Assembly (NCBI GenBank): GCA_947585865.1
Contig: CANPXH010000011.1
Coordinates: forward strand, 1 to 64,000
DNA length: 64,000 nucleotides
Direction of reading: 5' to 3'
Source: an uncultured Clostridia bacterium
GTDB lineage: Bacteria > Bacillota > Clostridia > Lachnospirales > CAG-274
The notes under the pieces were generated by a model that saw only the letters and a list, made by a program, of their open reading frames with translations, was not told the origin of the DNA and did no database searches. A program made the position numbers and the translations under genes. Below are positions 4,915 to 63,345 of the stretch, piece by piece. The stretch's first letter is position 1. Each line of letters begins with the position of its first letter.

Positions 4915-5234
4915 AGCCTGCCTTAAGCAGACTCAGCGTGTCGACAAAGTCGACACGCTTGAAAGAAATGTTTGCATTTCTTTCAGATTAATTAAGGTAG
5001 GAACCAGCCGTGTTTTCCGCAATTTTGGTGTTTAACACCAAAATTACAGAAAAGTTCCTGTCCTCGGAGGAAATGAATTCCTCCTGCGGATTAAAGTCTG
5101 CGATGCTTTTTTTTAAGCTGTTTGCTTTGATAATTCATATTTTGGGTCAAATTTTACTTTTTTGACAGTCTGAGCCTGCCTTAAGCAGGCCGCATCAAGC
5201 ATAAAAAGCTGTCTCACACAAAGACAGCTTTTTT
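4915..5234 (+). repeat. Structured dispersed repeat, copy A (near full length, plus orientation)
   Basis: This fills the 474-nt gene-free stretch after the PHP gene. In order it holds: hairpin 1 (AGCGTGTCGAC 4935-4945 / GTCGACACGCT 4949-4959, loop AAA); hairpin 2 (GAAAGAAATG 4961-4970 / CATTTCTTTC 4975-4984); a three-part nested stem (AGGAAC 4999-5004 with GTTCCT 5054-5059, TTTTC 5013-5017 with GAAAA 5049-5053, and arms 5021-5030 / 5036-5045); hairpin GGAGGAA / TTCCTCC (5066-5084); a G-U containing hairpin (5086-5101); and, near its 3' end, GACAGTCTGA at about 5164-5173. A 16-nt direct repeat AGCCTGCCTTAAGCAG flanks the core at 4915-4930 and 5173-5188. A terminator-like hairpin with a T run closes it (5206-5234). 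A related copy lies at 50590-50902 on the other strand. Confidence 0.85.
5206..5234 (+). terminator. Rho-independent terminator at the 3' end of repeat copy A
   Basis: Arms AAGCTGTCT (5206-5214) and AGACAGCTT (5222-5230) are followed by a T run to 5234. The equivalent position in copy D also carries an AAGCTGTC hairpin with a T run, so termination may belong to the element. Confidence 0.65.
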
Positions 5235-7755: not shown

Positions 7756-9168
7756 TTAAGGTACTATTATCTCTTCGCCGACTACAAAATCCGAACCGCT
7801 CTTGCCGTTTGCCTGGCAAAGCTTGTTCCAAAGCTCGGGAGTATACTGTCCGTATACGTTTGTACAAAGCTTGACGCCTGTGTTGTCGCCTGCCTGTACC
7901 GTATAGGTTCCGCCTGAATTGGAGCTTGTTGCTCCCGATGTGTCATCCACCACGGAAGATGGAGCACCATCGGCAGTCTGTATACCGCCTGCTGCTTGAG
8001 CATCCGCCGAAGCATTGGCCGCAGAACCTTCGCCTGCTGCGCCGCTGCCGCTTCCTTCTGTGTTATTGCCGCCTGTCCGGCCGTTTTTAAGCTGTGCATT
8101 CTCAGCCTTGAGCTGTTCTACCTGTGCCTTGAGCTCATTTATCTGCTCGGCCGTGCTTGTGCCGCCTTCACCCTGAAGCTGCTCTATCTGCTGTCTTGCT
8201 GAGTCGTAATTGTTCTTGTAGCTGTAGCACATTGCGGCAAGTGCCGCCACTGCACATATAAGAAGAACTACAAATATGATATGGAATATTTTCCTGACGG
8301 ATACGGCGCTTTCATCGTAGTCGTCATCGTCATACTCATCATCGTATTCTTCATCGTCATATTCCTCATCGTATTCCTCAAGGTCTTCATATTCCTCGTC
8401 ATCTTCATCGTCGTAGGAATGCTTATTCTTTTTAAATACTGAAAAAAGACCGCCCTTCTTTTCCTCGTATTCCTCGTCATCGTCATATTCGTCATCGTCA
8501 TACTCGTATTCCTCATACTCCTCATCGTCGTATTCGTCATCGTCGTATTCGTCATCCTCGTATTCGATCTCATCTTCATTTTCTTCGATTTCGGGTTCGG
8601 GCTCAGGTTTTCTCCCGGCAGAACGTCTTCTGCGTGGCACGACCTCTTCTTCAAATTCGTCGTTATGTTTCATTTCGGGCGTTTCCTCCTCGGTAGATTC
8701 ATTGATATCGGATCCTTCCTTAGCATTATCCTCTGCCAGCTTTTCGGCGGAACGTATTCTTTCGGGATCGATAACTATGGTGGGATCGATGCTTGTAACG
8801 GCTTTCTCCTTGTCCTTTGTCTGCTTAGGCTCCGTCGTCTGCTCCTCACTTGTCTCGGCAAACTCGGCATTATCCGGGATAGGATTATGTACATCCTTCT
8901 CTTCATTATTACGGGCAGCCGCAGATCTGCGAGGCTTGACCTTGTCTACCTCCTTGATGTAATCATCGTCTGCAAAATACAGTGTAGTATCTCTGCGTCC
9001 TGCTCCAAAATAATTCTTGCCGCCCTCATCCATATATGCTTCCAGCAGTCTGCCGACAGCCTTCTTGGTCTCTTCGGAGCTATAGGAACTCAGGGCTGAT
9101 TCCAGCCTTTTGCTTTTCCTATCGGCTAAGGTACTTGAGTAAGTGCCTTTTTTACCTTCATCGGCCAT
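7756..9168 (-). CDS. Acidic single-pass membrane protein with coiled coil and LysM-like C-terminus
   Basis: The 470-residue product is modular. Residues 1-190 are charged and probably cytoplasmic. A segment dominated by Asp, Glu and Tyr in short EYDDDEYDDEE-type repeats follows (about 195-290), interrupted by a basic patch GLFSVFKKNKH. One TM helix lies at about 297-317. A short coiled coil (about 325-360), a Gly/Ser/Ala-rich linker and a terminal domain starting TYTVQAGDN complete it. That end resembles a divergent LysM motif, which would bind peptidoglycan outside the cell. GGAGGGAATGAG precedes the ATG. The protein may tether wall to membrane, but that is inference. The acidic repeats create long false reading frames on the other strand and in other frames. 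Confidence 0.72.
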   Translation of the reverse strand: MADEGKKGTYSSTLADRKSKRLESALSSYSSEETKKAVGRLLEAYMDEGGKNYFGAGRRDTTLYFADDDYIKEVDKVKPRRSAAARNNEEKDVHNPIPDNAEFAETSEEQTTEPKQTKDKEKAVTSIDPTIVIDPERIRSAEKLAEDNAKEGSDINESTEEETPEMKHNDEFEEEVVPRRRRSAGRKPEPEPEIEENEDEIEYEDDEYDDDEYDDEEYEEYEYDDDEYDDDEEYEEKKGGLFSVFKKNKHSYDDEDDEEYEDLEEYDEEYDDEEYDDEYDDDDYDESAVSVRKIFHIIFVVLLICAVAALAAMCYSYKNNYDSARQQIEQLQGEGGTSTAEQINELKAQVEQLKAENAQLKNGRTGGNNTEGSGSGAAGEGSAANASADAQAAGGIQTADGAPSSVVDDTSGATSSNSGGTYTVQAGDNTGVKLCTNVYGQYTPELWNKLCQANGKSGSDFVVGEEIIVP

Positions 9169-26669: not shown

Positions 26670-26792
26670 TGCATCCGCTTATGCTGCGGCCCGAATACAT
26701 GGCGGGCAGCATTACGAAGCAATATGCACGACGCTTTTTGCAAGTGGTTCGCATTGATAATTTTTTATGCGGTATTTTACTTTTTCCAAAGT

Positions 26793-26912: not shown

Positions 26913-27047
26913 TGGCGCCCCTATCATATGATAGTCAGCGTGTCGATAAAGTCGACACACTTGAAAGAAATGCAAGCATTTCTTTCAGTTGAATTTATGA
27001 TAGTTTTGTTTTCCTATATATGACCATTTTTAAAGTAATTATTTTAT

Positions 27048-43470: not shown

Positions 43471-43539
43471 ACCGTTGCTAAAGCGGATATCATTAAAAGT
43501 GCGGCAAAAGGACTAAGCCGAACAATAAATATAATATAC

Positions 43540-43604
43540 CTTAATTCAACTGAAAGAAATGCAAGCATTTCTTTCAAGAGTGTCGATTTTATCGACACGC
43601 TGTA
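43540..43604 (-). repeat. Short copy (two hairpins) of the structured repeat, minus orientation
   Basis: On the plus strand GAAAGAAATGC (43552-43562) / GCATTTCTTTC (43565-43575) and AGAGTGTCGAT (43577-43587) / ATCGACACGCT (43591-43601) form two tight hairpins identical in design to hairpins 2 and 1 of copies A and D. The flank AATTAAGGT (minus strand) is shared with copy A, then homology ends. It lies between convergent recA and livF and may serve as their shared 3' structure. Confidence 0.8.
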
Positions 43605-50589: not shown

Positions 50590-50902
50590 CTTGAAAAAAA
50601 GAAGCTGTCACATATGAATATGTGACAGCTTCAGACTGTCGAAAAACAATATTTTGACAGAAAATATGAATTTTAAGTAAAGAACAGTTTGCAAAAAGCG
50701 CTGGTCACATTACTTCGTAATGTTGCTCGCCATGCATCCGGGTCGCAGACTATAATCCGCAAGGCGAGCTTTGCCCGCCTGAGGACAGGAACTTTTCTGT
50801 AATTTAGGCATTTATGCCTAAATTGCGGAAAACACGGCTGGTTCCTACCGCAGCTAACTGAAAGAAATGCCAAAAAGCATTTCTTTCAAGCGTGTCGCTT
50901 TC
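50590..50902 (-). repeat. Structured dispersed repeat, copy D (near full length, minus orientation)
   Basis: This fills the 337-nt gap between pyk and the DUF3793 gene. Read on the minus strand it starts at the stop codon of that gene with only the right arm of hairpin 1 (CGACACGCT). Then follow hairpin 2 (plus 50860-50870 / 50877-50887), the nested stem (plus AGGAAC 50787-50792 / GTTCCT 50841-50846; TTTTC 50793-50797 / GAAAA 50828-50832; inner arms 50801-50810 / 50815-50824), hairpin AGGCGAGC (50762-50769) / GCCCGCCT (50773-50780), the G-U hairpin 50745-50760, an extra CATTAC / GTAATG hairpin (50707-50721), CTGTC / GACAG (50636-50660) and a terminal hairpin. Inner stems differ from copy A by paired changes. 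Confidence 0.85.
50594..50632 (-). terminator. Terminal hairpin of repeat copy D
   Basis: GAAGCTGTCACATA (50601-50614) and TATGTGACAGCTTC (50619-50632) form a perfect 14-bp stem. On the minus strand it is followed by seven T. The plus strand lacks a T run, so pyk has no clear terminator of its own. Confidence 0.7.
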
Positions 50903-51437
50903 ATCCTTTCACAACAAGCTTTTCAAATTCCCTGCCTTCATTGAAAAGTCTTGAATATACGCAAGTGCATTTCCTGTATATGCGAAATCTTTCCTGTGCT
51001 TTTTCCATACTGCCGTATACCTTCCACTGGCCGCACATAAGAGCATTGCGCCCTTTGTTTTTTATGAACCCTATCACATCCTCTATGGGATAGCTTAAAA
51101 ACAGGCCTATCTCGTGAGGGAATTCTCCCGGTACCGATATCCTCCGCTTAAGGTGTTCTATGCACATATTACAGTCTGTGGTGTAGCCAAGCTCTTTCAT
51201 AAACGCTGCGCATTCGGGCTCGCAAAGCTCTCTTTCAAGCCTGCTGCGCCTGTAAACATATACAAGAGCGGTGCTTTTTCTCTTTAAAAGCACTGTGGCA
51301 TATATGCCCATTTTATTGTACCTGTCATTAAAGCTTACCATATTGCTGCGGATATCTTCAATATCCCCGTTGAATATACTTCCCGCCTTAAGCCCCGCCA
51401 ATGTAGGCGCACAATAGCTTATGACACTGCTTTCCAT
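50901..51437 (-). CDS. DUF3793 family protein
   Basis: The 178-residue product matches the DUF3793 pattern I recall: SYCAPTLAGLKAGSIFN at the start, a central LVYVYRRSRLERELCEPECAAFMKELGY (about 55-82), FPHEIGLFLSYPIEDVIGFI (about 109-128), then CGQWKVYGSMEKAQERFRIYRKCTCVY. The family is restricted to Clostridia-like bacteria. Its function is unknown; the several cysteines suggest a metal or haem link. ATG 51437 follows GGGAGG; the earlier in-frame codons to 51452 include that site. The repeat copy D begins at its stop codon, so the end of the original gene may have been altered. Confidence 0.85.
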   Translation of the reverse strand: MESSVISYCAPTLAGLKAGSIFNGDIEDIRSNMVSFNDRYNKMGIYATVLLKRKSTALVYVYRRSRLERELCEPECAAFMKELGYTTDCNMCIEHLKRRISVPGEFPHEIGLFLSYPIEDVIGFIKNKGRNALMCGQWKVYGSMEKAQERFRIYRKCTCVYSRLFNEGREFEKLVVKG

Positions 51438-51503
51438 ATGCGTACCTCCCATATCGTTATGTACTTACAGTATCCCCAAAGCAGATAAATTATAGCATAA
51501 AAA

Positions 51504-61092: not shown

Positions 61093-61117
61093 AGTGATCT
61101 GTTCCTTATTGTCAGTA

Positions 61118-61168
61118 TTATATAAAAACGACCGATTTTTCCGTGACCCTGTCGCAGAAAAAAATTAT
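61118..61168. repeat. Flanking direct repeat, left copy (L)
   Basis: The stretch TATTATAT-AAAACGACCGATT-TCCGTGACC-TGT-CAG-AA (from about 61116 to 61167) recurs at 62036-62090 with roughly 80% identity. Both copies end at or in the stop codon of the gene on their right (KilA-N here, wecC there), and both are in the same direction, so they bracket the KilA-N gene. Confidence 0.75.
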
Positions 61169-61995
61169 TTTTTTTCCAATGATCTTATAGTTTCAATACT
61201 TAACCTTGACAGAGTATCAAGCTGTTTAACGGCATATGTCCTCAATATCTGTATTCTTTCGCTTTGCGGTATGCCTTTTTCGATCAGGATCGCATTATAG
61301 CTTTCCATATTTGCCATAACAAGAAGCTGATCTATATCTGCATGATCCCGTATATTGCCCTGCTTATCAGGATTTTCGTCACGCCATTGCTTTGCTGTTC
61401 TGTTGAACAATGCCACATTCAGCATATCCGCTTCACTTGCATAGGTCATAGACTTCTGAAAAGCAGTGACCTCCTCCGGTATAAGATTTTCCTTTATCGC
61501 ATCTGTGTGTATACGGTAATTGAGCTTCGACAATTCCCTGTTAAGATTCCAATTCAGCGATATCTTACTGTTTTCATCAAGCTTTATTCTCTGATAATCC
61601 TTTATAATATAAAGCTTGAACTCGGCAGACACCCATGATGCAAATTCAAAGGCAATATCGGAATGAGCATATGTACCCCCATATCTTCCTGCCTTAGTGA
61701 CTATGCCTATTGCATTGACACCTTCTATCCATTTTGTAGGCGACATTGTAAAGGCATTTAATCCTGCCTGCTTTCTAAACCCGTCGAATTCGACGGGTTT
61801 AAAATTTCCGTTATGAAGCATTTCCCAAAGTCCCAAGAACTCAATGGTATCTCTTCCACGCATCCAGTTTCTTATTACATCATTAGGATCATCGCTTTTA
61901 TAACGGGCAATATCCGTCAGCGAAATATATTCATTTTTAAAATCCTCTGTATAGATACTTATTTCATAGCCATTTGCATAAATAGTATCTTTCAT
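61165..61995 (-). CDS. KilA-N domain protein (phage-type)
   Basis: KilA-N domains bind nucleic acid and are common in phages and in mobile genes. The 276-residue product has the KilA-N core YISLTDIARYKSDDPNDVIRNWMRGRDTIEFLGLWEML (about 26-63) and KAGRYGGTYAHSDIAFEFASWVSAEFKLYIIKDYQRI (about 108-144), then a helical C-terminal part. I choose ATG 61995; a TTG at 62010 is also possible. Unlike its neighbours it lacks a clear ribosome-binding site. It sits between wecC and a glycosyltransferase gene and is bracketed by two related repeats, so it looks like an insertion in a polysaccharide operon. Confidence 0.82.
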   Translation of the reverse strand: MKDTIYANGYEISIYTEDFKNEYISLTDIARYKSDDPNDVIRNWMRGRDTIEFLGLWEMLHNGNFKPVEFDGFRKQAGLNAFTMSPTKWIEGVNAIGIVTKAGRYGGTYAHSDIAFEFASWVSAEFKLYIIKDYQRIKLDENSKISLNWNLNRELSKLNYRIHTDAIKENLIPEEVTAFQKSMTYASEADMLNVALFNRTAKQWRDENPDKQGNIRDHADIDQLLVMANMESYNAILIEKGIPQSERIQILRTYAVKQLDTLSRLSIETIRSLEKK

Positions 61996-62035
61996 TTGTT
62001 TACTAACCAATTTATTTACCCGTTAAATATTATCC

Positions 62036-62090
62036 GTATTATACGAAAACGACCGATTCCTCCGTGACCGTGTTACAGGAAGATATTATC
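62036..62090. repeat. Flanking direct repeat, right copy (R)
   Basis: The right partner of the repeat at 61118-61168. It reads TATTATAC-AAAACGACCGATT-TCCGTGACC-TGT-CAG-AA and ends in the wecC stop codon (62086-62088). The distance between repeats is about 910 bp, which contains only the KilA-N gene. Confidence 0.75.
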
Positions 62091-63345
62091 TTGTGCCGTC
62101 GCCAAGGAGAACGTATTTTGCTCCTGCCTTTTCAACGTCTGCTCTGCTCCAGAAGTTTCTGGTATCCAGCAATATCTTATCGTTCATATTTTCGGTGAGC
62201 TTGGCAAAGTCAATATTTCCGAACTCGTCATGATTTACGCCTAAAACTGCAATATCGGCGCCCTTTGCCGCCTCATATATATCAAAGTCCTCAGCAAGCT
62301 TTTCGCCTGCATGGGGATCGCATATCCTTACATTGACGCCCTTGGACTTTAAGCTGTCGGCAAGGTGCATAACGGGAGATTCTCTTACATCATCGATATT
62401 GGGCTTATATGTAACGCCGTAAAGCGCAACAGTCTTGCCCTCCAGTCCGCCTATAAGACCTGCGATCTTGTTCTCCACAAACTCAGGCATAGAGTCGTTG
62501 TTAAGTCTGCCCTGGTGTATGAGCTTGGCATTCTTGCTCTTCTCAACTAAGAACCATGGGTCAAGAGCTATACAATGGCCGCCTACGCCGGGGCCGGGAG
62601 AAAGTATATTTACTCTTGGGTGCTGATTTGCCATTCTTATAACATCCCAGCAGTTCACGCCCAGCTCTTCGCTCATCTTTGCAAGCTCGTTGGCAAGAGC
62701 AATATTTACATCTCTGAATGTATTTTCCATAAGCTTACACATTTCGGCGGTAGTGGAGGTGGTAATGAATATTTCTCCCTCTACTATGCTTTCATATACC
62801 TTCTTTACCTCAAGGCTTGACTTTTCGTTTATACCGCCTACTATACGGCTGTTTGTCCTTAATTCCTCCAGCACTCTGCCCGGAAGTATCCTTTCGGGAG
62901 AATGGGCAACGAGCAGCTCCTCGCCTAACTCAAGACCTGTCTCCTTAAGTATGGGGAGCATAAGATCCTCCACCGTTCTCGGGGGTGACGTAGACTCCAA
63001 TATAACTATATCCCCCTTTCTCACATGGGGAACGATAGCCCTTGTGGCTGACTCAACATATCTCATATCGGCAGTCTTGTCCTCATTGATGGGAGTGGGC
63101 ACGGCTATGATATATACATCGCAGTCATCGGGGCATACAGTCTGAGCGGTAAGCCTGCCGCTTGCGACTACCTGCTTTACAAGATCGCCCAGACCCGGCT
63201 CTTCAATTATTATCTCGCCCTTGTTAAGAGCATTCACAGCCTTTTCGTTAAGGTCATAGCCCACAACTCTGTGACCCTTTGAAGCGAACATTGCAGCGGT
63301 AGGCAAACCAACATAGCCTATACCTATAACACAAATGCTTTTCAT
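62086..63345 (-). CDS. wecC: UDP-N-acetyl-D-mannosamine dehydrogenase (WecC-like)
   Basis: WecC oxidises UDP-ManNAc to UDP-ManNAcA in two NAD-dependent steps. The 419-residue product has the nucleotide-binding start ICVIGIGYVGLPTAAMFASKGHRVVGYD, VESTSPPRTVEDLMLPI (about 114-130), SPERILPGRVLEELRTNSRIVGG (about 149-171), and the catalytic-Cys block NILSPGPGVGGHCIALDPWFLVEK (about 247-270). The GPGVGGHCIA-DPWF form favours WecC over UDP-glucose dehydrogenase. It would supply the sugar for the TagA-type enzyme. No wecB epimerase lies in view. Confidence 0.92.
   Translation of the reverse strand: MKSICVIGIGYVGLPTAAMFASKGHRVVGYDLNEKAVNALNKGEIIIEEPGLGDLVKQVVASGRLTAQTVCPDDCDVYIIAVPTPINEDKTADMRYVESATRAIVPHVRKGDIVILESTSPPRTVEDLMLPILKETGLELGEELLVAHSPERILPGRVLEELRTNSRIVGGINEKSSLEVKKVYESIVEGEIFITTSTTAEMCKLMENTFRDVNIALANELAKMSEELGVNCWDVIRMANQHPRVNILSPGPGVGGHCIALDPWFLVEKSKNAKLIHQGRLNNDSMPEFVENKIAGLIGGLEGKTVALYGVTYKPNIDDVRESPVMHLADSLKSKGVNVRICDPHAGEKLAEDFDIYEAAKGADIAVLGVNHDEFGNIDFAKLTENMNDKILLDTRNFWSRADVEKAGAKYVLLGDGTR

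Follow-up and report, generated by a model that had tools for sequence, protein, structure and literature searches.

A probable IS1182-type MITE with a conserved structured core, inserted at terminator hairpins in the Lachnospirales

What kind of entity recurs throughout the genome of an uncultured clostridial bacterium, runs through a series of hairpins and encodes no protein of its own? Two copies (A and D) in a 64,000-nt stretch of contig CANPXH010000011.1 (the window hereafter) had been described in an initial annotation as a dispersed, structured and non-coding element, either a structured RNA or a mobile element whose structure matters, with copy A extending over 4915-5234 and closed by a terminator hairpin. 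The kinship of the two copies was borne out: both 20-mers named as shared blocks have exactly two occurrences in the window, where they had been reported (chance expectation ≤0.01), the copies are 81% identical over 163 nt, and the stems with their three compensated pairs are present as claimed. The extent had to be redrawn. Read side by side, the copies share their start, (C)AGCGTGTCGATAAAATCGACACGC, and their end, TTTTTCGACAGTCTG, with a hairpin beyond each end, and copy A is therefore limited to 4934-5172, while the supposed closing hairpin is missing from other copies and is thus a separate terminator downstream. The 16-nt direct repeat noticed in copy A is real and turned out to be a target-site duplication. 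The features of the window are the following:

4915-4933, plus strand: left-hand duplicate of the target terminator hairpin, AGCCTGCCTTAAGCAGACT, a direct repeat with 5173-5191
4934-5172, plus strand: copy A of the putative MITE, 239 bp, running from CAGCGTGTCGA to TTGACAGTCTG, limits set by the direct repeats
4936-4958, plus strand: H1, the 5' end hairpin GCGTGTCGAC-AAA-GTCGACACGC with the left terminal repeat inside (from sequence)
4960-4985, plus strand: H2, hairpin TGAAAGAAATG..CATTTCTTTCA (from sequence and fold)
5000-5059, plus strand: H3, nested stem GGAAC[CAGCCGTG]TTTTC..GAAAAGTTCC, covarying
5067-5085, plus strand: H4, hairpin GGAGGAA..TTCCTCC (covariation in the alignment)
5086-5103, plus strand: H5, G-U hairpin TGCGGATTAAAGTCTGCG, near-invariant throughout the family
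5162-5172, plus strand: right terminal repeat TTGACAGTCTG, complementary to the IS1182 end CAGACTGTCAA
5173-5191, plus strand: right-hand duplicate of the target hairpin of copy A, a direct repeat with 4915-4933
5203-5233, plus strand: intrinsic terminator, a neighbour outside the element
26684-26743, plus strand: 3'-half fragment of a D-like copy
26935-26995, plus strand: solo 5' module, H1 and H2 only
43537-43602, minus strand: solo 5' module, H1 and H2 only
50602-50631, minus strand: target hairpin at the right flank of copy D, AAGCTGTCACATATTCATATGTGACAGCTT
50632-50896, minus strand: copy D, truncated at its 5' side within H1, with a hairpin module added after H5 and the right end intact

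The terminal inverted repeats of the element are imperfect (CAGcgTGTCGA / TCGACAgtCTG in copy A), the longest open reading frame overlapping 4934-5172 has 60 aa and extends out of the element, and a transposase gene of its own is absent. In copy D the lost part of the left end adjoins the stop codon of ORF 50901-51452. The additional hairpin module of copy D (GGAnGCATrGCGAGCA-stem-GACCAGC, 50697-50742) is also found at L036, L048 and L072 and occupies two different insertion points, as if stems of the element were targets or modules. Elsewhere, the window holds imperfect (~73%) 100-nt direct repeats at 8310-8559, within ORF 7756-9168, and a 65-nt direct repeat (80%; 61107-61171 and 62028-62092) bracketing ORF 61165-62010.

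The host genome contains some 30 copies of the element or more. A 21-nt core pattern allowing up to two mismatches occurs 24 times in the 2.58 Mb of this genome (reversed control: 0), a covariance model, as proposed in the initial annotation, collected about 59 hits, and H1 is found at ~41 places per strand. By pattern, there are 11-40 copies in each of the sister species within the genus, several of them represented by MAGs from rabbit gut; in 36 further genomes from the family and order the exact core pattern did not occur. The core model matches in 32/48 genomes, covering 10/11 genera of the host's family, and a model of the 47-nt 3' module in 59/295 genomes of the order, from four families (f1, f5, f16 and f17); in a 398-genome sample of the phylum the latter matched no genome besides the host. 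Plasmid and phage collections gave no match to the element, and viral contigs yielded one exact match. Exact-core matches in Arthrobacter, Hymenobacter, Planctomycetota, Spirochaetales and others in a 257-Gb collection were dismissed as chance 18-mers, since the rest of the element is missing there.

Among the 89 copies parsed within the genus, 71 are bordered on both flanks by a direct repeat (local alignment of left against right flank, score of at least 13), against 0/89 mismatched pairings, a strong repeat being absent from the other 18. The repeats are 13-39 nt long and vary in length with the span of the enclosed hairpin (Pearson 0.88, Spearman 0.87); a strong hairpin lies in the left flank of 78% of the copies, as opposed to 6% of control windows further upstream. 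Outside the genus the end motifs are the same, and a repeat was detected at 28/81 loci versus 1/81 controls. Comparing joined flanks with other loci revealed two clear empty orthologous sites in sister species (L061 versus L002 and L053 versus L054), and both L061 and L053 show a single hairpin where the occupied copy shows two. L098 and L184, likewise flagged as empty sites, were left uncounted because of poor alignment at the hairpin. One site is apparently occupied both in the host (L006) and in a second species (L030, G003), which suggests that some insertions are older than speciation. At L003 one of the flanking hairpins is inverted, so that the pair are reverse complements instead of direct repeats, and at L108 the duplication is confined to 10 nt, apparently the target hairpin's loop, with the arms split across the element, resembling a hypothetical loop-duplication pathway (PMC5678879).

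A possible partner for the element was located through a search for DUF772 transposases. At one locus (L153) a complete IS1182 element adjoins a copy of the putative MITE, with matching ends and target type, in the order hairpin - IS1182 - hairpin - MITE - hairpin, and the hairpin is the same all three times. The transposase encoded there (475 aa) is assigned to the IS1182 family by NF033551, with 417 bits against a cut-off of 270. In ISfinder, IS1182 is listed with long duplications of variable length. IS1182 elements in two genomes of other genera (G051, G007) begin with CAGACTGTCAAAAAA beside a hairpin, and this sequence is the exact complement of the right end TTTTTTGACAGTCTG of the MITE; an IS end adjoins a hairpin at L315. 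When the ends are compared (CAGcgTGTCGA / TCGACAGTCTG for the MITE, CAGTCTGTCAA and CAGACTGTCAAAAAA for the IS), the sequence common to both is limited to the terminal bases, and hairpins are found inside H1 and inside both IS ends. Matches to NF033551 occur in the host genome (G000), G051 and G007, those to PF05598 additionally in G002 and G003. The IS1182 transposase was not found in the element-rich genomes G001, G004, G011, G268, G192, G226, G178 and G108, of which G268 is a single-contig assembly, and when alternative drivers were sought among DDE_Tnp_1 transposases of the transposase-less hosts, no clear candidate emerged; for such hosts, mobilisation by an IS1182 transposase implies that assembly gaps or later loss have to be assumed. 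A short IS200/IS605-like element (..GTATTCAGCAGGGGTGCAAGCTCCTGCTGAATAC..) was seen nested in a copy of the MITE and in an IS1182 transposase gene (L016, G000:C33; L152, G003:C73).

IS1272 and TnSha1, IS1182-family elements of staphylococci, target stem-loops, often terminators, without sequence preference, and they delete or replace the hairpin without target duplication (PMC4923244, PMC5678879). The element described here is similar with regard to the family of its partner transposase and the targeting of hairpins, but differs in that the whole hairpin is duplicated and not removed in the 71 repeat-bordered copies, so that stem-loop replacement of the IS1272 type does not describe them. The copies rather fit a duplication of the whole stem-loop that has been drawn, though only as the hypothetical alternative pathway 'b' (PMC5678879). 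Among bacterial MITEs with structured transcripts, BOX, RUP and SPRITE (reviewed in PMC10969869) are likewise short, non-autonomous and intergenic, with stable secondary structure and terminator association; in this comparison of features, the element stands apart through its hairpin-length duplications and a core that covaries over four families.

The core consists of three stem-loops whose structure is kept across these four families, and it forms part of a modular build made up of end hairpin, H2, middle fold, 3' module, AT-rich tail and right end. The 3' module, CCTC-H4-TGCGGATTnnAGTCTGCGACGC, is nearly constant, whereas the middle fold is of at least five different kinds among the loci; one of these, class iii (GTATAAACAG..CTGTTTTCCTC), occurs in both f1 and f17; three types of pair are seen in its P1 helix, and 12/26 pairs are doubly changed. 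In the wider alignments the stem covariation claimed for copies A and D stayed above shuffled and slid controls, which account only in part for sequence relatedness: 14/37 pairs are changed on both sides among 52 core sequences of the genus and close relatives (9.1 when shuffled, ≤4 when slid), and the 3' module has 100 doubly changed cells versus 26.9 shuffled in a 57-sequence alignment. In an alignment spanning several genera 6/7 pairs of H4 covary, with 100% pairing. The stem of H5 is longer in f17, where G-C may replace the G-U of f1. The unpaired CCTC and TGCGGAT show little or no variation. On the plus strand the 3' module contains 192 G-T versus 9 A-C cells (23 versus 5 in H4 alone); H3 contains C-A mismatches on this strand, equivalent to G-U on the opposite one. 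Because this strand polarity is mixed, we do not present an RNA role of the core as demonstrated.

In agreement with the initial annotation, which recognised no known riboswitch, 6S or SRP RNA, the element has no Rfam match at the gathering score: strict and permissive scans returned only tRNAs in the window and nothing above sub-threshold level elsewhere, and a group II intron signature was absent from the scans of the element. The most suggestive candidate, Clostridiales-2 RNA (RF02937), was rejected, as the likeness is sub-threshold (28 bits versus a gathering score of 58.6), on the opposite strand and in one f17 genome, and no hit exceeded the cut-off in 7 genomes including the host.

Taken together, ends, targets, duplications, empty sites, partner and covariation are most economically explained if the element is a non-autonomous MITE that is mobilised in trans by a DDE transposase of the IS1182 family, with the entire terminator hairpin being duplicated on insertion, and we regard this as very probable. 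The conserved core across the order with its covarying stems, the stability of the fold of copy A (z = -7.7) and the retention of G-U wobbles on one strand would also suit a stand-alone RNA gene, an sRNA or cis-regulator spread by recombination, with its mobile features incidental. Yet full copies have common ends and mostly lie between duplicated target hairpins, no conserved neighbour gene was seen around them and no Rfam family matched; the duplications and the two clear empty sites already disfavour such a gene, and the inverted ends and IS1182-family partner are what the initial annotation itself had set against it. Of its two options the mobile element has thus held, and a stand-alone RNA seems very unlikely. 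Group IIC introns insert next to terminator hairpins, and variable duplication length is usual in target-primed reverse transcription; both would accommodate a retroelement or ORF-less group IIC-like intron, inserted beside terminators by reverse transcription, as would the many host genomes in which no transposase is visible. The terminal inverted repeats, however, match those of an IS1182, and Rfam gave no group II intron hit to the element. Moreover, group II introns are not known to duplicate their target, and the resemblance ends with terminator-proximal insertion. A retroelement or intron is extremely improbable here.

It is harder to decide in what form the structure of the core matters. 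An IS1182-type MITE could keep its internal stems only as DNA palindromes, for hairpin recognition or self-correction, and have no role at the RNA level. This is conceivable, if somewhat doubtful: IS1182 relatives act on DNA stem-loops, hairpins lie in H1 and in both ends of the IS, and the C-A mismatches of H3 mean that neither strand is consistently favoured and indicate that the compensatory changes could in part derive from palindrome correction at the DNA level. The excess of G-T over A-C on the plus strand of the 3' module, the constancy of the unpaired CCTC and TGCGGAT and the rebuilding of H5 with G-C pairs in f17, on the other hand, speak against stems kept only as DNA. Judging from the alignments, the core appears to be selected for its structure, probably as RNA, since structure conservation across families exceeds what one would expect of a passive deletion derivative; it may be kept for shielding or terminating host transcripts, for example, or for binding a mobility factor. 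We only tentatively suggest that the MITEs harbour a structured RNA that is new and extends through the order, composed of the invariant 3' module CCUC-stem-UGCGGAUUnnAGUCUGCGACGC and interchangeable 5' folds and acting as RNA, and the proposal that it acts in the mobility of the element or at the 3' ends of host transcripts is equally speculative.

Returning to an IS1182-type MITE, its insertion can be pictured as follows. The transposase would recognise the element ends CAGnnTGTCRA and take an intrinsic-terminator hairpin as target, and on both strands the element would be joined at the hairpin's 5' foot. Repair would then copy the entire hairpin, leaving a working terminator on either side of each insertion. 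Both this strand-transfer geometry and IS1182 as the enzyme in every host are inferred.

While the targeting of hairpins by IS1182 relatives is already known, two points are new with respect to the literature searched, supplementary tables (e.g., PMC8040213) being outside its scope: the duplication of entire hairpins on a scale set by their size, and a superfamily of MITEs whose structured core had not been recorded. Dozens of natural insertions, in which larger target hairpins go with longer duplications, strongly support the view that a transposase of the IS1182 type recognises secondary structure in DNA and is able to copy an entire stem-loop, which had been no more than a hypothetical pathway in that literature. 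A terminator left on both sides of the insertion explains how the elements could build up harmlessly at gene ends. The core represents a structural family with members in four bacterial families and no entry in Rfam, and why a passive transposon retains an RNA-like fold becomes a testable question; if the fold does act as RNA, this would be a DNA transposon family with a conserved non-coding RNA aboard, perhaps controlling hairpin-targeted insertion.
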